Virus record (IMG/VR): IMGVR_UViG_3300033153_005706
Location: 1 to 27,102 of that record
From: a virus
Strand: one strand, 5' to 3'
Length of the DNA stretch: 27,102 nucleotides
Numbering within the stretch: position 1 is the first letter of the stretch; every line of letters starts with the position of its first letter. A program made the translations under genes and the position numbers. Shown here in pieces: positions 2-11,259 of this stretch. A model generated the notes under the pieces. It saw nothing but the letters and a program-made list of their open reading frames with translations. It made no database searches and was not told the origin of the DNA.

Positions 2-529
2 GGCGTTGCGCTTGGCGAAACGCAGGGCGAAGTCAAGAAGATGAGCGAAACCATCAGCGCCATTAATGCCGATAAAAAAGCGCTTGAAGATCGTCTTGCC
101 AAAACTGAGGTTGCGCTTAAACGCCGTGGCTCTGGCGGCGAAGGCGAAAAAGGCCAAAGCGAAGCAATGGTCGAATACCGCGGCGCGATCAAGCAGTTTA
201 GCGTCTCGGGCGATGCCACAACGATGAAAGAGGCGCAAGAGAAGTTTCTTGCCGCTGAGCCAGAAGCCAAGGCTATGGCGGTCAACTTGCAGGCCTCTGG
301 CGGCTATGCTGTGCCCAAAGACATGTCTGGACGCATGGTTACAGTCATTCATGAGAGTTCGCCTATGCGCGCTCTTGCTAGCGTTCAAGCAACGAGCCTC
401 GGCGAGATTGAAGGCCCTGTGCGCGAAGGCCGTATTTCTGGCGGCTGGACTAAAGAACTTAAGTCCCGCCCTAAGACTGATACGCCAGAGTTGGGTATGT
501 GGTCGATCCCAGTCAGACTCAATGTTTGA
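2..529 (+). CDS. HK97-fold major capsid protein, N-terminal part (gene starts before window, frame ends early)
   Basis: The frame is open from base 2, so the gene begins upstream of the window. The first part is charged and helical, like the delta/scaffold region of HK97-type capsid proteins. It is followed by the typical start of the mature domain, GGYAVPKDMSGRMVTVIHES, then SSPMRALASV and the E-loop-like stretch ending in LGMWSIPV. The protein would form the icosahedral shell. After IPV the frame runs into four unrelated residues and a TGA at 527-529. The family normally continues with a helix ending in DDxxFDIEG, and that continuation appears one frame away from base 516. The gene therefore looks interrupted by a small deletion or assembly collapse, not naturally short. 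Confidence 0.85.
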   Translation, partial: GVALGETQGEVKKMSETISAINADKKALEDRLAKTEVALKRRGSGGEGEKGQSEAMVEYRGAIKQFSVSGDATTMKEAQEKFLAAEPEAKAMAVNLQASGGYAVPKDMSGRMVTVIHESSPMRALASVQATSLGEIEGPVREGRISGGWTKELKSRPKTDTPELGMWSIPVRLNV

Positions 530-1127
530 CATTGAAGGCTTCCTTGCAACCGAAGCAGGCGAAGAGTTCGCACGCATCGAAGCAAATGCATTTACGGTTG
601 GCGATGGCGTAGGCAAGCCTCGTGGCATTGCCACTTACGACAAAAATTACATTGCTGTTGGCAAGCGTCCTAGCGGCGTACAGGCTCGCGGCTCCGTTCG
701 CACAATTAAGACGGGCGTAAATGGCGGCATTACCGATCCAGATGTTTTGGTGACAATGAAGAAAAACATCAAGCAAGGTTATCGCTCTGGCGCCACTTGG
801 TGTTTGAATCCAGAGGCCTTGCTGCAAATCCAATTGCTCAAGCAGGAGGATCGCTATATTTGGCAAGATGGCCTGAATGGTGATCCAGATACAATTTTAG
901 GTCTTGCTCTTTCTGAGTTCGATGACCTGCCAGAGTTTGCGGCTGGCAGCATTTCATTCCTACTTGCCAATGTTTCCCGCACCTACCAGATTGCCGACCG
1001 TATGGCATTCTCGCTCCTGCGCGATCCATACAGTAGCAAGCCTATGGTCGAGTTCTACATGCGCCGCCGTGTCGGTGGTGATGTGGTCAATTTTGACACA
1101 ATGGTATACGCAGAAGCAACTGCCTAG
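516..1127 (+). CDS. Major capsid protein, C-terminal part (out of frame with the N-terminal part)
   Basis: From base 516 the third frame reads DSMFDIEGFLATEAGEEFAR and goes on with GDGVGKPRGI, then ends with a spine/P-domain-like region (DRMAFSLLRDPYSSKPMVEF) and TAG at 1125-1127. This is the expected second half of an HK97-family capsid protein. The frame is open further upstream (from 249), but that earlier part is a shadow of the N-terminal frame. Compared with relatives, about 16-17 residues between the IPV strand and DDSMFDIEG are missing, which fits loss of about 47 or 50 bases. No ribosome binding site or start codon suits independent translation. It is either a sequence-assembly fault, a variant allele or a dead capsid gene. 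Confidence 0.85.
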   Translation, partial: DSMFDIEGFLATEAGEEFARIEANAFTVGDGVGKPRGIATYDKNYIAVGKRPSGVQARGSVRTIKTGVNGGITDPDVLVTMKKNIKQGYRSGATWCLNPEALLQIQLLKQEDRYIWQDGLNGDPDTILGLALSEFDDLPEFAAGSISFLLANVSRTYQIADRMAFSLLRDPYSSKPMVEFYMRRRVGGDVVNFDTMVYAEATA

Positions 1128-1130
1128 CAC

Positions 1131-1153
1131 ACGGGGCGCACATTGCGCTCCGT
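1131..1153 (+). other. Hairpin just after the capsid gene
   Basis: Bases 1131-1140 pair with 1144-1153 (ten pairs including one G-T) around the three-base loop CAT, four bases after the capsid stop codon. No run of T follows on either strand, so it is not a standard intrinsic terminator. A position between a highly expressed capsid gene and the next gene would suit a 3' mRNA-stabilising or attenuating hairpin. That role is inference. Confidence 0.45.
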
Positions 1154-1182
1154 TCACTCAATAAAAAAGAAAGGGGCATAAC

Positions 1183-1608
1183 ATGCCTAATCGTGAATTT
1201 GCTTCCGACATTGCTGTCTTGGACAGCATCGGCGCTGGCAATAAATCGGGCACTCTTGACGGCTCTACCGTCGATGTGCGCGATGCCAATGCCGCAACCG
1301 TCGTTATTTCATTTGGTGCTAATGTTGACGCCGGCGCTACCTGTGAAATCCAGCACGGCAATGAGTCTGACGGCAGCGATGCCGTAGCGCTTACGCCTGC
1401 ACAGGTCGCGGCTGTTGGCGTTGAGCTGTACGGCCAAGACTACGCTGCGCCCGTTGCCAACCAAGCCCGCCGCTTTGCCTATGTTGGCGGCATGCGCTAT
1501 GTACGTGTTGTTCTTGGCGGCACTGTGGCAGACACCGACCTGCACGCACAGGTTATTTTAGATCGTCTGCATGTGCTACCGAATCTGTCGGGCTTCACCG
1601 AAGCCTAG
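1183..1608 (+). CDS. Small head-region protein, possible capsid accessory or decoration protein
   Basis: A 141-residue protein begins 55 bases after the capsid gene, with a good binding site (AAAGGGG) before ATG 1183. It is rich in Ala, Val, Gly and Asp and looks beta-rich (DAATVVISFGANVDAGATCE; RFAYVGGMRYVRVVLGGTVA), ending LHVLPNLSGFTEA. I see no transmembrane segment or catalytic motif. Proteins of this size and composition directly after HK97-type capsid genes are often head accessory proteins. That is only a positional inference, and I do not recognise the family with certainty. Confidence 0.75.
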   Translation: MPNREFASDIAVLDSIGAGNKSGTLDGSTVDVRDANAATVVISFGANVDAGATCEIQHGNESDGSDAVALTPAQVAAVGVELYGQDYAAPVANQARRFAYVGGMRYVRVVLGGTVADTDLHAQVILDRLHVLPNLSGFTEA

Positions 1609-1697
1609 CCCTGACGGGCATTGCTTTTCATGCGCCCCATTGCTTAGGTAGCTCCGAGTTTTGGGTGTCGCATGTTTTTTTTTACATGGAGGATAAA

Positions 1698-2069
1698 ATG
1701 CTAGTAAAAATAATCAGAGATACGCGGGCAGCTCCTGACCATGTAAAGGTGCAATTATTTGAGAAGGGCCAAGAGCTTGAGCTGCCAGAATGGCTTGCGC
1801 TCGCCTTGTGTTCAGATGGGTCAGCAGAACACACAGGCGCCACGCATGATTCGGCTGAATCAAAAGGCAGTACCGAGGCCCCTGACTTTACCGAAGCCCC
1901 ATATCTTGGGCGTGTTTTCGCTGAGCATATTGTTTCAGAAATGAATATTAGCACTTGGGACGAGTTGCAGCACGCTTGTAGTCTGCGAAAAGAAGAGCTT
2001 GTCGCCCTGCGTGGAATCACAGAAGGCCGCGTCGAAGAAATCGGCGCTTGGATTGAGGATAATAAATAA
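1698..2069 (+). CDS. Phage head-region protein with a C-terminal helix-hairpin-helix-like segment
   Basis: The start at 1698 is preferred to upstream in-frame codons because GGAGG (1688-1692) lies just before it. The 123-residue protein opens with a beta-like segment (MLVKIIRDTRAAPDHVKVQL, then a short glycine turn and LELPEWLALALC) seen in small phage proteins located beside connector genes. The middle is acidic and low complexity (about residues 48-73). The end, CSLRKEELVALRGITEGRVE, resembles a helix-hairpin-helix such as that in the RNA polymerase alpha C-terminal domain. The stop overlaps the next start (TAATG at 2067-2071), so the two are probably translationally coupled. Function unknown. 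Confidence 0.7.
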   Translation: MLVKIIRDTRAAPDHVKVQLFEKGQELELPEWLALALCSDGSAEHTGATHDSAESKGSTEAPDFTEAPYLGRVFAEHIVSEMNISTWDELQHACSLRKEELVALRGITEGRVEEIGAWIEDNK

Positions 2070-2794
2070 TGATCTGCTCTGGTGGTGGCCGTGGTAATAC
2101 TGGAGCATTCGTGCATCCTTATTACAGCATCAAGCGCCTAAAGGTTATTATCGCGCCTACTGAACACCCTGTGACGCTCGAAGAGGTCAAGGCGTGGCTT
2201 GGCGGCAGCATACCCGCAAGCGACGACGCAATGCTCTCTGGGCTTATCGCAGCGGCTACAAATGCCGTTGAAGAATATTGCCGCCGAAAACTCATGAGCA
2301 CAGGCCTGCGCGCAACTCTTGACGCGTGGCCAGCCAATGCCAGCCCAGCGTTTGAAGGCATGCGGCAAGGCCCTGTAAACGACGGCGTAGCCCGTGCGTT
2401 GTCCCTACACAAACCCCCACTTATTAGCGTCGAGGAAGTGCGCTATTTGGGCGATGACAATGCGAGTACTATTTATGATGCATCCAATTATTTTGTCGAT
2501 AATTCAGACCCAGACCAATACGGGCGGCTTGTCCTTAATGATGGGGCTGATATTCCTCACGGCATGCGTAATGCTGCCAGCGTTGAGGTTGATTATACTG
2601 CTGGCTACGGTGGCGCTGCTGACGTTCCTTTTGCTATTCGCCAAGCAATTCTCATGGTTATTGCTAATATGTACGGCAATCGCGGCGATTGTAATATTGG
2701 CGACGGCATAAATAGTCGTGGTGGCGTCTTGAATCCACTAGAGGCTAGTGGTGCAGCCGGCATACTTGAGCCTTATCGAGTTCTACGGATATGA
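2069..2794 (+). CDS. Head-tail connector protein, HK97 gp6-like
   Basis: This protein would form the ring under the portal that links the packaged head to the tail. Typical gp6-like features are PVTLEEVKAWL near residues 34-44, then an acidic SDDAMLSGLIAAATNAVEEY helix, CRRKLM, and DYTAGYGGAADVPFAIRQAI followed by a short helix with GNRGDCN. At 241 residues it is slightly long for the family. The first 25 or so residues (MICSGGGRGNTGAF) look like an extension, so the true start could be a later non-ATG codon. No better ATG exists before the domain. It overlaps the next gene by four bases (ATGA). Confidence 0.85.
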   Translation: MICSGGGRGNTGAFVHPYYSIKRLKVIIAPTEHPVTLEEVKAWLGGSIPASDDAMLSGLIAAATNAVEEYCRRKLMSTGLRATLDAWPANASPAFEGMRQGPVNDGVARALSLHKPPLISVEEVRYLGDDNASTIYDASNYFVDNSDPDQYGRLVLNDGADIPHGMRNAASVEVDYTAGYGGAADVPFAIRQAILMVIANMYGNRGDCNIGDGINSRGGVLNPLEASGAAGILEPYRVLRI

Positions 2795-4122
2795 CTTTTT
2801 TCTTGGGCAGCGCATTTTCTATACACATAGAAAACCCTGCTGGCTCAGGGCTGTATGAGGCAATAGAATGCACGGAAAGCGCAGTGCTGACAATAAATAA
2901 TGAGGAGATTGATGTCTCGGCAAAGTGCAACTCGCCGTGGAAACACCTAATGGAAGGTGGCGCGCAAAGCATATCCGTTAGCTTTAATGGCCTTATTTCT
3001 TACGGTGATATGCTGCGCGCTGTTTTGATTGCAGCCCACAACGGCACAGGAATAAACGCTATGGTAATCAGCGAGGCGCTTGATTCCTACACATGCAAAT
3101 TTCTGATTACCTCCTGTAAGCGCAATGGGGATAATAACGGGGCGGAGAGGGTGAGTCTGACGCTGCAGGGAATGAATACCCCTATTTATTCGGTGATATC
3201 TAACCTTGGGGATTACGGTTGGGTGCAGTCGCCTAATACAGGATGGTGGTACAAGATTAGTGACTCTGATAAACTCGTTGACGACGCGCGCGCTGAGGCC
3301 TTGACTTATGGGGCGTATGCAGCTTATCTAGATTCTGTAGAAGAATGCCTGTTTGTCTCGGCGGCAATGGTACTAGGTGCCCGCCGCCTAATTGCGTGGA
3401 TTGGTTTAATCGACCTCGACCCGACTATCGTATGGGATTTCCACTGGCACTCGGGTGAGCCATACTCGCTGTCTACCTCAAACTGGCTGGCTGGTGAACC
3501 GTACAATACTGCGGGTATTATTGTTCGTGGCGTGGCCATGTATTTAGATGGTTCAGGCGTACCATATGCAGGGTATTGGACGATGGTTCGTGACACCACT
3601 GTATATCAGGTCATCATGCAAATCAAAGACCCTGCCACCCTCACGCCTGCTAATTGGGCTAAGATTAAGCTTACATACTATGGTTGGGTGCAGTCGCCTA
3701 ATACAGGATACTGGTACAGGCTTACAAATGCACAGCAGGGGTGGGTCGCTGGCGAGGCTATAGCCGTGCAGTGTGGCAGTCATCTGGCCTCCATTCACAG
3801 TTCTGCGGAGAACACATGGATCTTTTCGACATATCAAGTTGCCACTGCCGTTAAGGGCTGGATGTGGGTAGGCGGTCACAATATAGTAGATGCAAGTAAT
3901 GCGTCATGGTCCGATGGCAGTGCATGGGATTACTGGAATTGGGCGGCAGGTCAACCAAATAATGCTAGCCCCACTCAACACTTTTTAGAATACAACTTCC
4001 TACTATCGGGATGGGCAGACACAGAAGACTCTTACAATTCGTGGGGGCTCATGCAAATCAAAGACCCTGCCACCCTTACGCCTGCTAATTGGGACGCCAT
4101 CGAGGCAATGGGGGCACCATGA
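2791..4122 (+). CDS. Tail-tube-like protein fused to two C-type lectin domains
   Basis: Residues 1-135 are a paralogue of the tail tube protein encoded at 5327-5755: both share EEIDVSAKCNSP, KHLMEGG, and FLITSC followed by GDNN. Residues about 142-278 and 297-424 are C-type lectin-like domains. The second is the clearer: CGSHLASIHSSAENTWI, WMWVGGHN, WSDGSAWDYWNWAAGQPNN and GWADTEDS match the usual WIG, NWxxGxPNN and WND positions. The first keeps AWIGL and NWLAGEPYN. Both domains open with GWVQSPNTG and close with MQIKDPATLTPANW. The family commonly binds carbohydrate or protein, so this may be a tube-borne or neck adhesin, which is inference. The gene overlaps its neighbours by four bases each side and lies between two connector genes, an unusual place for a tube protein. 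Confidence 0.8.
   Translation: MTFFLGSAFSIHIENPAGSGLYEAIECTESAVLTINNEEIDVSAKCNSPWKHLMEGGAQSISVSFNGLISYGDMLRAVLIAAHNGTGINAMVISEALDSYTCKFLITSCKRNGDNNGAERVSLTLQGMNTPIYSVISNLGDYGWVQSPNTGWWYKISDSDKLVDDARAEALTYGAYAAYLDSVEECLFVSAAMVLGARRLIAWIGLIDLDPTIVWDFHWHSGEPYSLSTSNWLAGEPYNTAGIIVRGVAMYLDGSGVPYAGYWTMVRDTTVYQVIMQIKDPATLTPANWAKIKLTYYGWVQSPNTGYWYRLTNAQQGWVAGEAIAVQCGSHLASIHSSAENTWIFSTYQVATAVKGWMWVGGHNIVDASNASWSDGSAWDYWNWAAGQPNNASPTQHFLEYNFLLSGWADTEDSYNSWGLMQIKDPATLTPANWDAIEAMGAP
3217..3244 (+). repeat. Lectin module border repeat, 5' copy 1
   Basis: These 28 bases are identical to 3682-3709. They encode the GWVQSPNTG opening of the first C-type lectin domain of the gene at 2791-4122. Confidence 0.9.
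3615..3658 (+). repeat. Lectin module border repeat, 3' copy 1
   Basis: These 44 bases match 4050-4093 with a single C/T difference. They encode MQIKDPATLTPANW at the end of the first lectin domain. Confidence 0.9.
3682..3709 (+). repeat. Lectin module border repeat, 5' copy 2
   Basis: This is the second perfect copy of 3217-3244, at the start of the second lectin domain. Spacing between the copies is 465 bases. Confidence 0.9.
4050..4093 (+). repeat. Lectin module border repeat, 3' copy 2
   Basis: This is the second copy of 3615-3658, at the end of the second lectin domain. Spacing is 435 bases. The silent C/T change leaves the encoded peptide the same. Confidence 0.9.
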
Positions 4123-4460
4123 GTAAATGCATTAATATCTGCGCTGGGCAAATGCGCTATGAAGCATTGATTCGCGCCGAAACACTGGCCGACGACGGCG
4201 CTGGCGGTAGCATAAAAACATGGACAGATAAATTCACGATTCGATGCTCGGCAACACAAAAGGCTGGCGGCGAAAAATGGCTACAAGAAGACTTGCGAAG
4301 CCCCGCTCATGTTGAGTTTACCACGCGCTATCGTGATGATATTACAGAAGCGGATCAGCTCGTATTCAACGGCGAGCAGTACGACATCTATAGCCTCGAC
4401 AATGTAGAATTTCGCAATCGCTGGCTTGTCGTAAAGGGCGTCCGGAGGGTGGCGCAATGA
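4119..4460 (+). CDS. Head-tail joining (head closure/adaptor) protein
   Basis: The 113-residue protein fits the phage head-tail joining family: MRYEALIRAETLADDGAGGS, then TWTDKFTIRCSATQKAGGEK, TTRYRDDITEADQLVFNGEQ, YDIYSLDNVEFRNRWLVVKG. It would close the connector below the gp6-like ring. The start at 4119 sits in an ATGA overlap with the upstream stop and follows a G-rich site. A longer in-frame start at 4089 would add residues inside the previous gene and is less likely. It also overlaps the next gene by four bases. Confidence 0.85.
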   Translation: MSKCINICAGQMRYEALIRAETLADDGAGGSIKTWTDKFTIRCSATQKAGGEKWLQEDLRSPAHVEFTTRYRDDITEADQLVFNGEQYDIYSLDNVEFRNRWLVVKGVRRVAQ

Positions 4461-4906
4461 GTGCGATTGCCGTAAAGACAAATATGCCTGAGTTCCTCGG
4501 CGAACTGGAAAAGGTTGGATCTGATACGCAGTTCGCGCTTCGCGGTGGGCTTAATCGTGCTGCTGTATTAGTTCAAAACACGGCTGTGAAAAGCATCCAG
4601 AAAAGCAGCGGGAAATTCAAGCCATACAGGGTTACTAAGGGTGGAGATATTCATTGGAGTTCTCCAGAAGGCGCGCCGCCAAACTCTAACAGCGGCGACC
4701 TTGCTAAAATGTTACTGATAACTGAGAACATACAAAATAAGCTGCATCCATTCGTGACCGTAGCCAGTACAGCGAAATATTCTATGATGCTCGAAATGGG
4801 CACCACCCACATGGAGCCACGACCATTTATGCAGCCTGCTCTTGATGCAAACAAAAAGAAAATACTCGCCATCATGCGCGCAGCACTTCGCAAGGGGCTC
4901 ACATAA
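4457..4906 (+). CDS. HK97 gp10-like tail/neck protein
   Basis: The 149-residue protein has the features of the gp10 family: an N-terminal helical part with ALRGGLNRAAVLVQNTAVKS, a PYRVTKGGD turn, and near the end YSMMLEMGTTHMEPRPFMQP followed by a basic helix. Members sit between head closure and tail completion proteins and take part in neck or tail assembly. GGAGG lies just upstream. The gene is tightly coupled to both neighbours (ATGA at 4457, TAATG at 4904-4908). Confidence 0.85.
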   Translation: MSAIAVKTNMPEFLGELEKVGSDTQFALRGGLNRAAVLVQNTAVKSIQKSSGKFKPYRVTKGGDIHWSSPEGAPPNSNSGDLAKMLLITENIQNKLHPFVTVASTAKYSMMLEMGTTHMEPRPFMQPALDANKKKILAIMRAALRKGLT

Positions 4907-5322
4907 TGCAACTCAAGCAAGCAGATATATTACGCGCGCTGGCGCAACGCCTGCAAAACGACGCGGGCCTATTGGCTATCGTTGGCACTGCCGACGGTGT
5001 CAAGAATCATTTGCCGCAAGATGCGCCGCTTCCATATGTGCGCTTTCGTCTTTCTGATTCTGATGCATGGGACTGCAAGACGAGTCGCGGCGGCATTAGT
5101 GGAACTATTGTTTGCGACTGCTGGACGCGCGAGCATGGCGATTTAGAGGCGCTGGAGCTTGCCGATGCATGTATAGCAGCGCTGGCATTTCAGCCGCTTA
5201 CATTGCCCACAGGACAGCAAATGTTAATATGCAGGCACGAACGAACGAGTATCACAATAGAGACGGATGGGCAAACGCATCACGCTGCCGTTTCTTTTAA
5301 TCACCTATCCTACGAGGGGTAA
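4906..5322 (+). CDS. Tail completion protein, DUF3168 family
   Basis: A 138-residue protein. LLAIVGTADGVKNHLPQDAP, LPYVRFRLSDSDAWDCKT and GGISGTIVCDCWTREHGDLE, then ALELADACIAAL, follow the DUF3168 pattern (lambda gpU-like). Such proteins cap the head-proximal end of the tail tube. Its position directly before the tube gene is the usual one. The start overlaps the previous stop at 4906. Confidence 0.85.
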   Translation: MQLKQADILRALAQRLQNDAGLLAIVGTADGVKNHLPQDAPLPYVRFRLSDSDAWDCKTSRGGISGTIVCDCWTREHGDLEALELADACIAALAFQPLTLPTGQQMLICRHERTSITIETDGQTHHAAVSFNHLSYEG

Positions 5323-5326
5323 AATC

Positions 5327-5755
5327 ATGGTAGAACATTTCAAGGGCACACTCTTTCTTATCCAAGTCGAGGACGCGCCACTTTCTGACAATTATATTGA
5401 TATTGCATGCATGGTTTCGACTAGCATGTCTGAGTCCACTGAGGAAATTGATGTCTCGGCAAAGTGTAATTCGCCATACAAGCATCTCATGGAAGGCGGC
5501 ACTCAAAGCATGTCGCTCTCCATGAACGGCCCGTTTAACAATGACGAGAGCATGGGCATCATGATGGAGGCGTCTAATGCTGGCTCAATTCTTAACTATA
5601 AAATAACAAGCGGTGCTGGCGACCTGTACGCCGGTGCTTTTCTTATCACCTCTTGCGAGCGCAGCGGCGATAACAATGCCGCCGAGCAGTACAGCCTGAG
5701 TCTCAGCAGTGCTGGAGCTATCGCATACACACCGGTCACACCACCTGCACCATAA
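5327..5755 (+). CDS. Major tail tube protein
   Basis: A 142-residue protein preceded by GAGGGG, giving the start at 5327; an upstream in-frame codon at 5267 lies inside the preceding gene. The fold is that of the TP901-1-like tube family: an N-terminal beta segment FKGTLFLIQV, then STEEIDVSAKCNSPYKHLME, GGTQSMSLSMNG, and AGAFLITSCERSGDNNAAEQ near the end. It would polymerise into the tail tube around the tape measure. It is the plain version of the tube domain found in the lectin fusion at 2791-4122. The short C-terminal tail TPVTPPAP carries no extra domain. Confidence 0.85.
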   Translation: MVEHFKGTLFLIQVEDAPLSDNYIDIACMVSTSMSESTEEIDVSAKCNSPYKHLMEGGTQSMSLSMNGPFNNDESMGIMMEASNAGSILNYKITSGAGDLYAGAFLITSCERSGDNNAAEQYSLSLSSAGAIAYTPVTPPAP

Positions 5756-5796
5756 ATAAAACAAATCCACCATAGTCTTTCTGAAAGGGGCTACCT

Positions 5797-6168
5797 ATGG
5801 CAAATCCATCACGCGGCGAATGCGAGATCATTATTAATAAAAATGTCTACACGGCAAAGGCCACAGTGAATGCGGCCTGCGATGTTGAAGACAAAACGGG
5901 CCTATCTGTTTATGCTATTGGCGAGGGAATGTCCTCGCTGAATGGGTATAAAATAAACACTGTTGCGGCATTGCTTTGGGCTGCAATCCGCGCTGGCTTT
6001 GATGATGCAGGTAACGCACCTACATTTATTGAGGTGCGTGATGACATATTCATTGCTGGCGTGAGCACCTTTGCGGAACCGTGCGCAAAGCTCATTTCTT
6101 TTTGGACGCTCAGTAATGAGCAGACACGAGACATTGAGGATGCGCTAAAAAAAACCTCAAGCGATTAG
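5797..6168 (+). CDS. Tail assembly chaperone, short (G-type) product
   Basis: The 123-residue protein resembles the gene-transfer-agent gp10-like tail assembly chaperone family: MANPSRGECEIIINKNVYTA, then AACDVEDKTGLSVYAIGEGM and YKINTVAALLWAAIRAGFDD. It would bind the tape measure and recruit tube subunits. It ends DALKKTSSD at TAG 6166-6168, just past a slippery A-run. A fraction of ribosomes is expected to shift frame there and make a longer protein. A good site (AAAGGGG) lies upstream. Confidence 0.85.
   Translation: MANPSRGECEIIINKNVYTAKATVNAACDVEDKTGLSVYAIGEGMSSLNGYKINTVAALLWAAIRAGFDDAGNAPTFIEVRDDIFIAGVSTFAEPCAKLISFWTLSNEQTRDIEDALKKTSSD
6147..6153 (+). promoter_or_regulatory. Programmed -1 ribosomal frameshift site (A AAA AAA)
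   Basis: The run of eight A at 6147-6154 contains A AAA AAA in the correct register: the zero frame reads CTA AAA AAA ACC. A -1 slip of two lysyl-tRNAs changes ALKK-TSSD-stop into ALKK-NLKRLAENG and stays open to 6443. The G/GT frameshift between tube and tape measure genes is an established feature of long-tailed phages. I did not identify a downstream stimulatory structure. Confidence 0.85.
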
Positions 6169-6443
6169 CCGAAAACGGAGAATCGCAAAAAGTCATATCT
6201 GAAATGCGTGAACGCGCTGATGATATACTTGATGGGGCCGAGCTTTGGGAACGCTATGCTGCAAGTCTGATAATAGACTTCGGCATAGCGCCTAATGATG
6301 CATGGAGCATGTCTATAGGCGAGTACTGGATGCTGCACGGCTACAAGTACAACGGCAATAAAAAGCAGGTTGGCAAGACTATATCCAGAGAACAAGGCTT
6401 GGCGATGTTCGTCGAGATGCGCGAAAAGGGACTTATCAAGTAA
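6153..6443 (+). CDS. Tail assembly chaperone, frameshift extension (T part of GT-type product)
   Basis: After the slip the frame reads NLKRLAENGESQKVISEMRE and continues with GAELWERYAASLIIDFGIAP and WSMSIGEYWMLHGYK to TAA at 6443. The T-like part resembles the short second chaperone of gene-transfer agents and phages. The only internal ATG (6204) has no ribosome binding site, which supports synthesis by frameshift. The full product from 5797 would be 215 residues. It lies immediately before the tape measure gene, as expected. Confidence 0.8.
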   Translation, partial: NLKRLAENGESQKVISEMRERADDILDGAELWERYAASLIIDFGIAPNDAWSMSIGEYWMLHGYKYNGNKKQVGKTISREQGLAMFVEMREKGLIK

Positions 6444-6452
6444 GGCGAAGTC

Positions 6453-8606
6453 ATGGCAGATGCAGCGGCAGAACTATTTATACGGATTGAGGCAGACATG
6501 GCCGACCTTAAGCGCGAGCTTAAGGGTGCTGGAAAGGCTGCCAAGCGCGCCACTGACGGCATCAAGCAAGGCTTTGCTAAGGCTGGCATGGCGGCTAGCG
6601 GTATGGCTGGCAAGCTGGCAAAGGTTGGCATTGCTGCCGCTGGCATTGCTGCTGCATTTGTGAGCGTTCGCACGGCTATGAAAACACTTGAAGAAGTGGA
6701 TGCTTTGGCGAAGACTTCCGACCGCTTAGGCATTACAACTAAAAAACTGGCAGGGCTTCAACTTGCCGCTGAACTCACCGGCGGCAGTGTTAGCGGCCTC
6801 TCCACATCGTTGCAGATGGCTGCTCGCAATATATCAGATGCAGCAGATGGCACGGGTACAGCATCGGATGCGCTTAAGAAAATGGGCATAGATGCAAAAG
6901 AGCTGCAGGCGCTGAGCCCCGATAAACAGCTAGCGGCAATAGCTGATGGAATGAATAAGTTAGGAACGCAGGGCGAAAAAGTGTCCGCTTCAATGGACAT
7001 ATTCGGACGCAGTGGCGCGGATATGGTCAACATGCTTGCGGGTGGATCGAAGGCCCTAGAGGATGCGGCAAAAAAAGCGGAGGCATTCGGCCTAGCAATA
7101 TCCCGCCAAGATGCTGCAGGCATTGAGGGCCTTAATGATGCGCTCACAATGATGGGGTCGCTCTTTGATGGAATCGCCCGCAAGTTCATTGCGGATCTTG
7201 CCCCGTCCATTGAGGCGCTTGTGACGATGACGACCAATTGGGGATTATCGGTAGCGACTACTGGCGACATGACGGACACCGTAATTGACGCCATAGGAAC
7301 TGGCATCAAGTGGCTTGGAAATATCACCGCTGGCATGGCCGTTATCTGGGACGGCATCAAGGTTGCTATCGGCAGCGTATCCGTTGCCTTTTGGTCAACA
7401 GCAAAAGTGGTGGCACAGGTTGTCGCTATAATAAAAGACAAGTACAATGCGCTGGACAATTACATAGGATGGGTGGCTTCTGGCTGGGGGTCCATGTTTG
7501 AGGCGGTATGGCAGGGCATCGTGCAATCGCTTGGCTCTGCTACTGAGTCAATGATGGGCATAATGGGCAGGGCAATGCGTAGCATGGGCGAGACTATTGC
7601 CAGCACAGGCATCAAGGGCGTGGCAGATTTAGGGCGCAGCATTCAAAACGCCGGTGGCGATATGATAGTAATGGGAGTGAGGGCCAAACAGGCAATCGGC
7701 GGCGACCTCGCAGGCGCCCTTGCTGATGTTGACGAAAAAGCCAAGGGGGCTAACGCGGCACTCGCAAACCTCACCTCTCTGAAAATGCCCGCAATTGATA
7801 CGAGCACTATCGACGCAAATATAAAAGAAGCTCAGCGTTTCACGCAAGAGTCAGCCTCAGACCTACGAACCTCTGTTGATGCAGCCCGCCCAGACGAAGA
7901 AGGCAACACTGTAGGCGATAAGATGCGTACTCAGTTTCAAGACCTCGTTGCAGCAAACGAAGAGCGCAATGCGCTTGTTGCTGAGACTGTTGCCGCAGGG
8001 CGCGAGGCGGCGGCGGTGGCAACTGCCGAGGCAGACGCATCGACGGAAGAGGGGGCCAAGCGGCACGAAGCAAACCTTTCTACCATCAAAAAAGAAGGCG
8101 ACGACACCCGCGTTAAGTTCACCGACTTAACAGGTAATCAGCAGCTTTCTCTTGTCGGCGATACGCTGGGCCAGATCGCCAGCGTAATGGACAAGGAAAA
8201 TAAAACACAGTTCAAAATTGCCAAGGCCGCTGGCATTGCGCAGGCGACCATAAGCACATTCCAAGGCGTTAATAATGCGCTAGCTAATGTTCCGTACCCG
8301 TTCAATTTTGTAGCAGCGGCTACCGTTGCGGCAGCTGGGATTGCCAATGTATCCAAGATAAGCCAACAGCAGTTTGGCGGTGGTGGTGGCGGTGGGGCAT
8401 CTGCTGGCGGCGCTCCAGCGGGCGGAGGCGGCGGCAGTGGTGGTGGTGGTGGTGGTACGCCAAACGCAGAAGCGGCGCCACAGCAAACACAATTCAATAT
8501 TGGTCTTACTGGCTCAAGTTTCAGCGGCGAGCAGGTACGGGCCTTGATTGGTGAGATAAACGACCAAACTGACGACAATGTAGAACTGAGGGCCACAGTC
8601 CAATGA
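6453..8606 (+). CDS. Tail tape measure protein
   Basis: The 717-residue protein begins AELFIRIEADMADLKRELKG, the usual tape measure opening, followed by long Ala-rich helices and a hydrophobic stretch (about 56-72). It contains the widespread DRLGITTKKLAGLQLAAELT and ASMDIFGRSGADMVNML blocks. A second hydrophobic part lies near residues 590-640, followed by a glycine-rich linker and a C-terminal end typical of the family. It sets tail length: at about 0.15 nm per residue the tail would be near 110 nm (inference). It overlaps the next gene by four bases. Confidence 0.95.
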   Translation: MADAAAELFIRIEADMADLKRELKGAGKAAKRATDGIKQGFAKAGMAASGMAGKLAKVGIAAAGIAAAFVSVRTAMKTLEEVDALAKTSDRLGITTKKLAGLQLAAELTGGSVSGLSTSLQMAARNISDAADGTGTASDALKKMGIDAKELQALSPDKQLAAIADGMNKLGTQGEKVSASMDIFGRSGADMVNMLAGGSKALEDAAKKAEAFGLAISRQDAAGIEGLNDALTMMGSLFDGIARKFIADLAPSIEALVTMTTNWGLSVATTGDMTDTVIDAIGTGIKWLGNITAGMAVIWDGIKVAIGSVSVAFWSTAKVVAQVVAIIKDKYNALDNYIGWVASGWGSMFEAVWQGIVQSLGSATESMMGIMGRAMRSMGETIASTGIKGVADLGRSIQNAGGDMIVMGVRAKQAIGGDLAGALADVDEKAKGANAALANLTSLKMPAIDTSTIDANIKEAQRFTQESASDLRTSVDAARPDEEGNTVGDKMRTQFQDLVAANEERNALVAETVAAGREAAAVATAEADASTEEGAKRHEANLSTIKKEGDDTRVKFTDLTGNQQLSLVGDTLGQIASVMDKENKTQFKIAKAAGIAQATISTFQGVNNALANVPYPFNFVAAATVAAAGIANVSKISQQQFGGGGGGGASAGGAPAGGGGGSGGGGGGTPNAEAAPQQTQFNIGLTGSSFSGEQVRALIGEINDQTDDNVELRATVQ

Positions 8607-9370
8607 GCATATGCGCGCTTCCTGCCATCCTGTACGATAACGCCGCAAGAGACGCTGGTGTGTCTCCCGTTTATTCTGGATCCATCGTGTCGGGCTTTGA
8701 GCCGATCAATGCAAGCGACTGGCGCGACTTCTCGCTATTCCGCGCGGCATCTGGCACATCGACCCTTGATTATGCAATGGCCCAAGATCGCGCTATTGAT
8801 TCCGCGTGCATCTATCTGGCGACCATTTGCGCAGGAACAATTACGCTGCAGTATGAGAGTTCGCCAGCGGTCTATACCACACTCGCAACATGGAACAATG
8901 CATCGGTTGGCGTGCATATGCAGCAGCTCGCATCTGTGACGGTACTGGCTGGCCGCAATGTTCGCTGGTTGTTTAGCCTCACTGGCCTCACTGATATTCG
9001 ACAGCTTGCCGCAGGGCCTGCGTTGATCATACCCATAGGGCAACGCTCTGGCCTCAATCCTCCCACGCTCACGCAAGGCATCGTGGTCAACAATACCATA
9101 GCGACCAATGGCAGCATTATAGGCCGCAGCATCCGCCGTATGGATCGCAAGACGCAGCTTAGCATTGAATACATCACGCCCGATTATGTGCGAACCACAT
9201 GGGAAGCATTCGCGCAGCATGCCGTCACCAAGGCATTCTTTTACTCATGGGATTATCAAACATACCCCGATGAGGTAACAATGAGCATCGCCGAGAGTAT
9301 CGGCGCTCCCGAGAACATGCCAAATCCGCGATTTATGAAAGTTGATTGGCCTTTGAGGCATCTAGTGTAA
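8603..9370 (+). CDS. Tail tip protein following the tape measure (distal-tail-like by position)
   Basis: The 255-residue protein shows beta-rich, carbohydrate-binding-like patterns in the first half (DRAIDSACIYLATICAGTIT, TTLATWNNASVGVHMQQLAS, VRWLFSLTG). The second half includes IIGRSIRRMDRKTQLSIEYI and a WEAFAQHAVTKAFFYSWD block resembling proteins that replace baseplate subunits. Position right after the tape measure and before the Cys-rich hub-like gene suggests a distal tail or tip ring subunit. I do not assign it to a named family. The start overlaps the tape measure stop (ATGA). Confidence 0.75.
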   Translation: MSICALPAILYDNAARDAGVSPVYSGSIVSGFEPINASDWRDFSLFRAASGTSTLDYAMAQDRAIDSACIYLATICAGTITLQYESSPAVYTTLATWNNASVGVHMQQLASVTVLAGRNVRWLFSLTGLTDIRQLAAGPALIIPIGQRSGLNPPTLTQGIVVNNTIATNGSIIGRSIRRMDRKTQLSIEYITPDYVRTTWEAFAQHAVTKAFFYSWDYQTYPDEVTMSIAESIGAPENMPNPRFMKVDWPLRHLV

Positions 9371-11259
9371 TGGCTTACGATGATGTAAAAAAAGAGTTTG
9401 GTCGTGAGCCAGTCTATTATATCGAAATAGACGCGGATTATTGCGGCAATACTTACGGGACAGGTCTATGTACGGCTATTGGCACAGGGCCATTCAAGTG
9501 TTTTAACACATTCAAGACCTGCCAAGATACGCCACACTTTGCCAATCAAATAAAAGTCTATCGTTTTGCAAGCAAGCGCATTGATGAACTGCAACAGGCG
9601 GGCGATGCCGTTACTTTTCCAACGCTGCAAACAATAGGCACCACCCCGACGAAGCTTGATCCAAGCAACGGGCTCGGTGCTCGCTCTACGCTCAAGCTGA
9701 GCGTAGCAGATCACCCGTGGACAGATGCAGGCATAGACCCTTATCTTTCTGAGCGCACAGAAGATGCAGATGCCATCGGCAGCTTTTGGGGCAAGTGGCT
9801 GGCTCGCAATCCATACTATGAGGGCCGAGGCATACGGGTATGGACGGGCTACCTTACAGATGAGGGTCTATTTGATCAATCTAATTTTATAGAGCGCGCT
9901 TATTTGCTGCACAAAATATCTGGCCCAGATGCATCGGGCAAGGTGATGATCGAAGCAAAAGACCCGCTCAAGCGTGCCGATAACGAGAAATCACAATGGC
10001 CGCCTGCGCCAGAGGTAACACTCACGGCAGATATTGGCGACTCAACAACGATTATAGCCGTTGATGATTCTGCGCCTATATCCGCATGGCTGGCCCGCAC
10101 GCCAACGCAAGAGTATATCCGCATAGATGATGAGATTATGCGCGTGACTGCTGCCGCTGGCAATTCGCTCACGGTGGTGCGCGCAAGTATGCCGCTATTT
10201 TATCAAGCCAACTCTAATATTGCTGAGGATCACGACGACGGCGCAAGCGTGCAGCTTTGCTACCTCTACGAAAACGAGAGGATCGACCATGTAATTGAAC
10301 AGCTACTAAATGAAGCATCGGGCATCCCGCTAAGCTTCCTGCCTGTTGCCGACTGGCAAGCAGTCATTCTTGATTCGGGTTATGAAACCTATGAAATGAA
10401 CACACTGCTTGTTGAGACAAAGGGCGTAAAAGATCTGCTGCAAGAGCTGACCAAGCTCAATGTCATGATATGGTGGGATGAGCGCGCACAGCAAGTCAAG
10501 ATGGGCACGCTACTGCCGACCTCTGCGAGTGGCGATGTATACAACGAAGACACGCACATTATTGATAAAAGCGTCGGGGTAACGCTGGATGTAAAGGGGC
10601 GACTATCGCGGGTATGGTTCGCTTATGGGCACCGCAACCCCACGCAAAAACTTGATGAACTCGTTAACTTCTCAGCCGTTGAAATCCGTATTGATGACGA
10701 TGCAGAAAGCGAAAACGAGTACGGGCAAAAGCGTGTGCATAAGATCATGAGCCGATGGCTCACGGGAACGCAGCGACCTATCGCTGGCGAAATATCGGGG
10801 CGCATACTCGTTGATAAGCGAGACACTAAAGCCACGATTACCATTAAGCTTGATCCAAAGGACGATGATCAATGGACAGGCGACACGATCACCGTCGAGA
10901 CACGGCAACGCCAAGATAAATTCGGCAGGCCAGTGAATGCCAATTACTTGATTTTGCAGGCCACTGAAAACCTCAAGGCCAATGGCGTTGAGTATAGCTA
11001 TGTACTGCAAGAGCAAGTCACATTTGACCGTACTGGCGTAATAACTCCAGACACAAACCCAGAGGTCGAGCTTGTGGACGGCGGCGAAGGGTTGACCGAT
11101 GGCGGTGAAGAGTTGCACGATGGCGCGCTTGAGCCTACAAATAAATTCCCAGATTATTCGGACGCTTCACAAAATCTAAAAAATCACTATGCTTTTATTG
11201 CATACGACGGGCCTCCTGCTGGATTCTTAGACGGCACAGTGGCATACCAAATATCATAG
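9370..11259 (+). CDS. Tail tip/hub protein with an N-terminal four-cysteine motif
   Basis: I chose the start at 9370 (TAATG overlap); an in-frame ATG at 9346 would add eight residues inside the previous gene. The N-terminal region of this 629-residue protein carries C(GNTYGTGL)C, then C(FNTFKT)C and QDTPHF, a pattern seen in phage tip proteins that may bind a metal or iron-sulfur cluster, as lambda gpL does at its other end. The middle (DDSAPISAWLARTPTQEYIR, IDDEIMRV) is beta-rich. A hub-like region follows with DLLQELTKLNVMIWWDERAQ. It would assemble at the tail end below the tape measure. Confidence 0.8.
   Translation: MAYDDVKKEFGREPVYYIEIDADYCGNTYGTGLCTAIGTGPFKCFNTFKTCQDTPHFANQIKVYRFASKRIDELQQAGDAVTFPTLQTIGTTPTKLDPSNGLGARSTLKLSVADHPWTDAGIDPYLSERTEDADAIGSFWGKWLARNPYYEGRGIRVWTGYLTDEGLFDQSNFIERAYLLHKISGPDASGKVMIEAKDPLKRADNEKSQWPPAPEVTLTADIGDSTTIIAVDDSAPISAWLARTPTQEYIRIDDEIMRVTAAAGNSLTVVRASMPLFYQANSNIAEDHDDGASVQLCYLYENERIDHVIEQLLNEASGIPLSFLPVADWQAVILDSGYETYEMNTLLVETKGVKDLLQELTKLNVMIWWDERAQQVKMGTLLPTSASGDVYNEDTHIIDKSVGVTLDVKGRLSRVWFAYGHRNPTQKLDELVNFSAVEIRIDDDAESENEYGQKRVHKIMSRWLTGTQRPIAGEISGRILVDKRDTKATITIKLDPKDDDQWTGDTITVETRQRQDKFGRPVNANYLILQATENLKANGVEYSYVLQEQVTFDRTGVITPDTNPEVELVDGGEGLTDGGEELHDGALEPTNKFPDYSDASQNLKNHYAFIAYDGPPAGFLDGTVAYQIS

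Follow-up and report, generated by a model that had tools for sequence, protein, structure and literature searches.

The open reading frame at 2791–4122 of the window (the whole 27,102-nucleotide stretch of virus record IMGVR_UViG_3300033153_005706 analysed here) encodes a second tail tube protein, extended at its C-terminus by two C-type-lectin-like domains. We propose that this copy is probably a minority tail-tube subunit, built into the tail and displaying exchangeable host-binding modules. The gene is a member of the morphogenesis operon, with the head–tail adaptor upstream and head closure downstream:

2069–2794, + strand: head–tail adaptor (gp6-like connector), profile matches
2791–4122, + strand: tube paralogue with two C-type-lectin-like domains, 443 residues, a single open frame from ATG 2791 to TGA 4122
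4119–4460, + strand: head closure protein (Phage_HCP), profile match
4457–4906, + strand: tail completion/Neck1 protein, profile match
4906–5322, + strand: tail terminator, profile matches
5327–5755, + strand: resident major tail tube protein, profile matches, with a strong Shine–Dalgarno sequence (GAGGGG)

Both junctions of the copy are ATGA-type overlaps: the adaptor stop at 2794 overlaps the ATG at 2791, and the head-closure ATG at 4119 overlaps the 3′ end of the copy. The adaptor and Phage_HCP genes thus flank the copy, which agrees with the initial annotation, where it had been placed among connector genes and ahead of the head-closure gene. The ribosome site of the copy is weaker than that of the resident tube (−2.5 versus −7.6 kcal/mol), as is the case in 8 of 12 genomes, a weak tendency only.

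The domains of the copy are located as follows:

2791–3195, + strand: tail-tube domain, residues 1–135 (Pfam, PHROG, alignment with the resident tube, AlphaFold2 model)
2899–2976, + strand: ring-stacking β2–β3 loop by homology, residues 37–62, between predicted strands 28–36 and 60–68 (alignment, model)
3211–3663, + strand: first lectin-like domain, residues about 141–291 (profile against the PDB)
3676–4119, + strand: second lectin-like domain, residues 296–443, with the site-2 tripeptide QPN (Lectin_C, profile against the PDB)

Residues 4–125 share 48% identity with the resident tube protein (E = 2e-33). Pfam Phage_tail_2 (PF06199) matches residues 21–127 (7.1e-9, 36.3 bits against a cut-off of 23.8), and the PHROG family phrog_1407, "major tail protein", matches residues 1–128 (4.2e-14), confirming the earlier assignment of the N-terminal 135 residues as a copy of the tube protein. 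Among solved structures, the closest relative is Rcc01691, the tube of the gene transfer agent of Rhodobacter (RcGTA), which the copy matches at E = 0.0019 and the resident tube at 1.2e-7. Structure prediction, which had been put forward as a check of this part, yields a tube fold: the AlphaFold2 model of the N-terminal domain (pLDDT mostly 63–86) is a monomer prediction with a β-sandwich, a flanking helix and a long β2–β3 loop, and it aligns with the RcGTA neck/tube chain 6toa_G over 118 residues (Z 16.0, rmsd 4.1). The identity between the copy and the resident tube is concentrated in residues 38–62, where 22 of 25 positions are identical. In the RcGTA tube, the β2–β3 loop carries most of the inter-ring contacts (PMC8718954). 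Retention of this loop is what would be expected of a subunit obliged to stack on the resident tube.

A profile of three lectin domains, compared with the PDB, matched the mannose receptor, collectins and CEL-I, with E = 6e-11 for the single-domain entry 1egg. Pfam Lectin_C scores residues 328–398 just below its cut-off (22.2 bits against 22.6, E = 2.5e-4), and the allele of the second lectin in the IMG/VR contig L003 scores above it (33.1 bits). On its own, the first domain is weak, with no Pfam match and a best PDB E-value of 0.007; all 17 of its PDB matches below E = 1 are either C-type lectins or proteins related in fold, such as antifreeze and snaclec proteins. AlphaFold2 modeling of residues 136–426 from 2–3 sequences stayed below a pLDDT of 50. 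Of the two C-type lectin folds claimed at first, the second is upheld by profile, the first is a weaker candidate, and the predicted fold of both stays putative; the domain limits, given earlier as 136–290 and 291–443, are corrected to those listed above. The canonical WND calcium motif is absent from the lectin domains, which have WAD, WYD or WTM instead. The tripeptide, compared with the reference motifs EPN and QPD, is EPY in the first domain, QPN in the second domain of the window and QPD in the L003 allele. In many C-type lectins, it is this tripeptide that sets the sugar preference. The lectin part has no match among phage GenBank records. In an unrelated phage (L067), one protein ends in a lectin with the same opening motif, a cassette of the same type.

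Comparison with two further contigs revealed a different second lectin at the same place, bounded by a repeated linker:

3614–3658, + strand: left copy of the linker repeat (repeat family D3), encoding the MQIKDPATLTPANW linker
3630–4084, + strand: exchanged cassette, replaced by another C-type lectin (QPD) in L003 and L004; boundaries approximate (contig comparison)
4049–4093, + strand: right copy of the linker repeat (repeat family D3), 98% identical to the left copy

The 45-nt linker occurs after both lectin domains of the window, and the cassette breakpoints lie inside it. L003 is 98.8% identical to the window over 515–3657 and L004, also an IMG/VR contig, is 99.6% identical over 4141–9767. 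In both, the nucleotide identity of the cassette to the window falls to 45%, and the two agree with each other completely (100%) over 580 nt. These comparisons indicate that the outer lectin is swapped like a cassette between near-identical phages, as seen with one alternative allele in two contigs that possibly come from one project. Exact-match scans with the left and right cassette flanks retrieved L003 and L004 only and no further alleles. The L003 contig terminates where the cassette rejoins the common sequence, as would be expected if a mixed population breaks the assembly. With the outer lectin held as a cassette between linker repeats, recombination could switch specificity and leave the tube part untouched.

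Hypermutation of the lectin by a diversity-generating retroelement (DGR) was considered and is rejected for these records. The mismatches in the cassette affect every base (A 60/98, G 52/100, T 50/89, C 41/82) with no adenine bias, and no reverse transcriptase (RVT_1) was found in the window or in 13 other records, which may be incomplete. The major capsid gene of the window is broken at 514–530 relative to L003 2781–2826, with about 44 nt missing and the frame shifted. It is read as ORFs 2–529 and 249–1127 in the window and is intact in L003; the break may reflect either faulty assembly or a genuine lesion.

Searching viral contigs with a profile made from the tube and copy sequences detected 30 loci. 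Of about 22 distinct contigs, 13 have a second tube-type gene with a C-terminal extension, and in one actinophage tube family (phrog_2645, 480 places in 243 records) the average is two copies per genome. Having a second tube gene is thus not rare; the initial annotation had regarded a tube-like protein with binding domains, encoded ahead of the head-closure gene, as unusual. In cultured PF06199 phages, tblastn returned matches to the tube or to the extension only, and no fused copy. A scan of GTDB genomes yielded only Zavarzinella formosa (L063, NZ_JH636446.1), where a planctomycete contig has a block of phage-type genes with just one gene for the tube.

The copies are found at four places. 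They lie ahead of the adaptor gene in L035, L041, L042 and L043. The window, L037 and L057 have them between the adaptor and head-closure genes; G004 (treated as a circular contig), L045, L047, L053 and L055 between the terminator and tube genes; and L051 between the DUF2460 and DUF2163 genes, among tail-tip genes. Since relatives carry the copy at four places, one of them among tail-tip genes, operon position does not decide the site in the virion, and the shaft, a neck ring and a tip ring would all fit. In one alternative, a neck location already raised in the initial annotation, the copy would form a single ring of its own where the tail meets the head, comparable to the lactococcal neck passage structure, instead of being mixed along the shaft. 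In most relatives the gene does lie among those for adaptor, closure, terminator and tube, the neck passage structure of 936 phages is known with carbohydrate-binding modules (PMC6669499), and a small copy number would suit a weak ribosome site. We nevertheless consider a neck ring unlikely, given that the gene place varies, with the L051 copy next to a distal-tail-type (DUF2460) gene, and that a loop common to the tube would permit stacking on any tube ring.

The C-terminal extensions are diverse. Fused modules are of the Vps10/BNR type in L037, Fn3-associated, CHB_HEX_C and Laminin_G_3 in L043, and Calx-beta in L051, with weak matches to PKD and DUF285 in L042 and to Ig in L047. G004, L045 and L057 share an arabinofuranosidase-B-like (LamG-like) module. 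In L045 this extension has matches in cultured phages (Gordonia, Arthrobacter and others), to proteins that several records name minor tail or virion structural protein; the AlphaFold2 model of the LamG-like part is of low confidence. A gene for a protein of about 138 residues follows the LamG-like copies (L045 4366–4779, L057 about 9305–9724, and at the contig ends of G004). The two genes occur together at two places in the operon, as if the pair had moved as a unit, and neither Pfam nor PHROG gave a match for the L045 protein.

Four copies (L035 2007–2495, L041 493–972, L053 5026–5502 and L055 5931–6428) carry only 25–28 extra residues, which end in similar acidic repeats (for example LLMETGVQILTESSTLLLTEG; ALTDFLLDENDANVTDEDNQYVQGL), and each is directly followed by another gene. 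In L035 the following gene is fibre-like, encoding 943 residues with YadA repeats and a K1-lyase-type C-terminus; in L055 it is likewise fibre-like, with Peptidase_S74 and tail-spike matches; in L041 and L053 its type is less clear. The acidic repeats might act as docking peptides for the product of the following gene. The adhesin thus seems to be either fused to the copy or encoded next door.

The fibre-like genes behind the short copies in L035 and L055, together with the place of the L051 copy among tail-tip genes, would also suit an adaptor ring at the tail tip, set between tube and baseplate and anchoring adhesins or fibres. The RcGTA distal tail protein has a tube-like fold and docks on the long loop of the tube (PMC7296036). 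A tip ring is quite improbable, however: 12 of the 13 copies are encoded upstream of the tape measure gene, and in most of these phages the usual DUF2460 and DUF2163 genes are present as well, as far as the contigs extend over them. In four of the contigs, the main tube protein itself has an insert of about 40–85 residues near its N-terminus (L041 4393–5112, L042 7737–8357, L043 5672–6316, L047 7575–8372).

We built a tree of 22 tubes and the 13 copies. One ancient duplication behind all copies is rejected, as the AU test excludes a single clade of copies (p-AU 5e-5), and well-supported branches force at least five changes between tube and copy. In the window, copy and tube are sisters (support 100/97), and an older clade holds eight copies. 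This topology argues that the copies arose several times. Across 12 genomes, copies share on average 45.2% identity with the tube of their own genome and 32.2% with other tubes (p < 1e-4). The likeness to the own tube is strongest in the ring-stacking loop and persists when only the older clade of copies is considered (p = 0.001; p = 0.0004 for the loop). Part of this similarity can be explained by shared descent, as well as by contact between the two proteins.

As far as sequence comparison allows, display on the virion appears the most likely role of the copy. Despite repeated origin, almost all copies have binding-type modules or an adjoining further gene (fibre-like in at least two cases), which supports a role as adhesin. 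From these data we infer that the protein is present in the virion in fewer copies than the tube, is displayed outward and binds sugar. The copy would be produced in smaller amount than the resident tube, as proposed from the lack of a good ribosome site in the window. Its N-terminal domain would fold as a tube subunit and join the resident tube via the common ring-stacking loop. The C-terminus would point outward, like the Ig and FN3 extensions of other tubes, so that the two lectin-like domains hang outside the tail. There they may hold the virion on carbohydrate of the host surface or its surroundings, helping first contact, and exchange of the outer lectin would alter what is bound.

The end branch of the window copy is longer than that of its tube (0.98 versus 0.30). 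This faster evolution might instead suggest a protein that is no lasting part of the virion, such as an assembly accessory, a soluble lectin freed at lysis or a decaying duplicate. We regard this as highly improbable, in view of the frame, intact in every relative whose contig covers the gene, the retained stacking loop, the tail-type adhesion modules associated with the copies and their repeated origin.

Our preferred reading, a displayed minority subunit, may extend beyond the window, although we advance this only tentatively. Phages with RcGTA-type tubes may repeatedly have duplicated the tube gene, with the copy becoming an all-purpose ring that mounts interchangeable adhesins, whether by fusion or by docking via a short C-terminal peptide. 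In the window lineage, recombination of the outer lectin cassette would switch binding specificity, with neither reverse transcription nor frameshifting involved. The range of binding domains on the copies suggests a common way to hang interchangeable hooks on the phage tail.

Studies of host recognition by phages have mostly addressed the tail tip. Tube copies with exchangeable lectins and other modules, if they do sit in the tail, would form a widespread second adhesion site that evolves by module exchange, apart from the tip. Such copies are easily missed, being annotated as "major tail protein" or as hypothetical proteins.

Minority tube subunits with an outward extension are known from SPP1, where a frameshift adds an FN3 extension to the tube (gp17.1 and gp17.1*, about 3:1) for which a carbohydrate-binding role was proposed (PMC8718954). 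In 936 lactococcal phages, TpeX similarly places a long, variable, BppA-like carbohydrate-binding module on some tube subunits by frameshift, and host-cell binding has been demonstrated for a tail module and a neck module of these phages (PMC6669499). Both systems use a single tube gene, whereas the window has a separate paralogous gene, with lectin-type extensions that differ in fold from the TpeX module and with exchange of the outer domain. A programmed frameshift from the tube gene is rejected for the window, where the copy has a full-length gene of its own, located 2.5 kb upstream of that for the tube.

DGR-targeted phage lectins (tentaclins and others) also present a C-type lectin domain with a diverse binding part on a phage protein. 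Their diversity is generated by reverse transcription (PMC10743442), in contrast to the whole-domain exchange seen here. In the Hcp2–Hcp3 heterohexamer of the Bacteroides fragilis type VI secretion system (PDB 9vne), different paralogues that share one fold build a tube ring, although that tube serves secretion with an effector and carries no phage adhesin.

With the SPP1, 936 and actinophage parallels, the kind of protein described here is already known in outline. Within our partial coverage of the literature, in which an earlier description may have been missed, three features appear new: the fusion to lectins, the exchange of a cassette, and an origin that recurred with different modules. 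The rarer points, compared with the mere presence of a second tube gene, are that the second lectin is exchanged and that copies originated independently more than once.

A comparable genetic arrangement is that of actinophages, where multiple tube genes (two in Gordonia cluster DJ) have been reported without explanation (PMC12859696, PMC11080557). The Microbacterium cluster EL phage DizzyRudy has three, gp17, gp19 and gp20, of which gp19 (L064 6259–8019) has 586 residues including a 366-residue extension with no Pfam or PDB match by sequence. As a tube copy in a cultured phage, gp19 offers a good laboratory system. As in the window, the tube paralogues have their own genes, and one of them carries a long extension at the C-terminus, but the tubes belong to another family (phrog_2645), and the lectin domain and cassette exchange are known from the window lineage and not from them. 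If our proposal is true, it would provide a reason for the paired tube genes of cultured actinophages.
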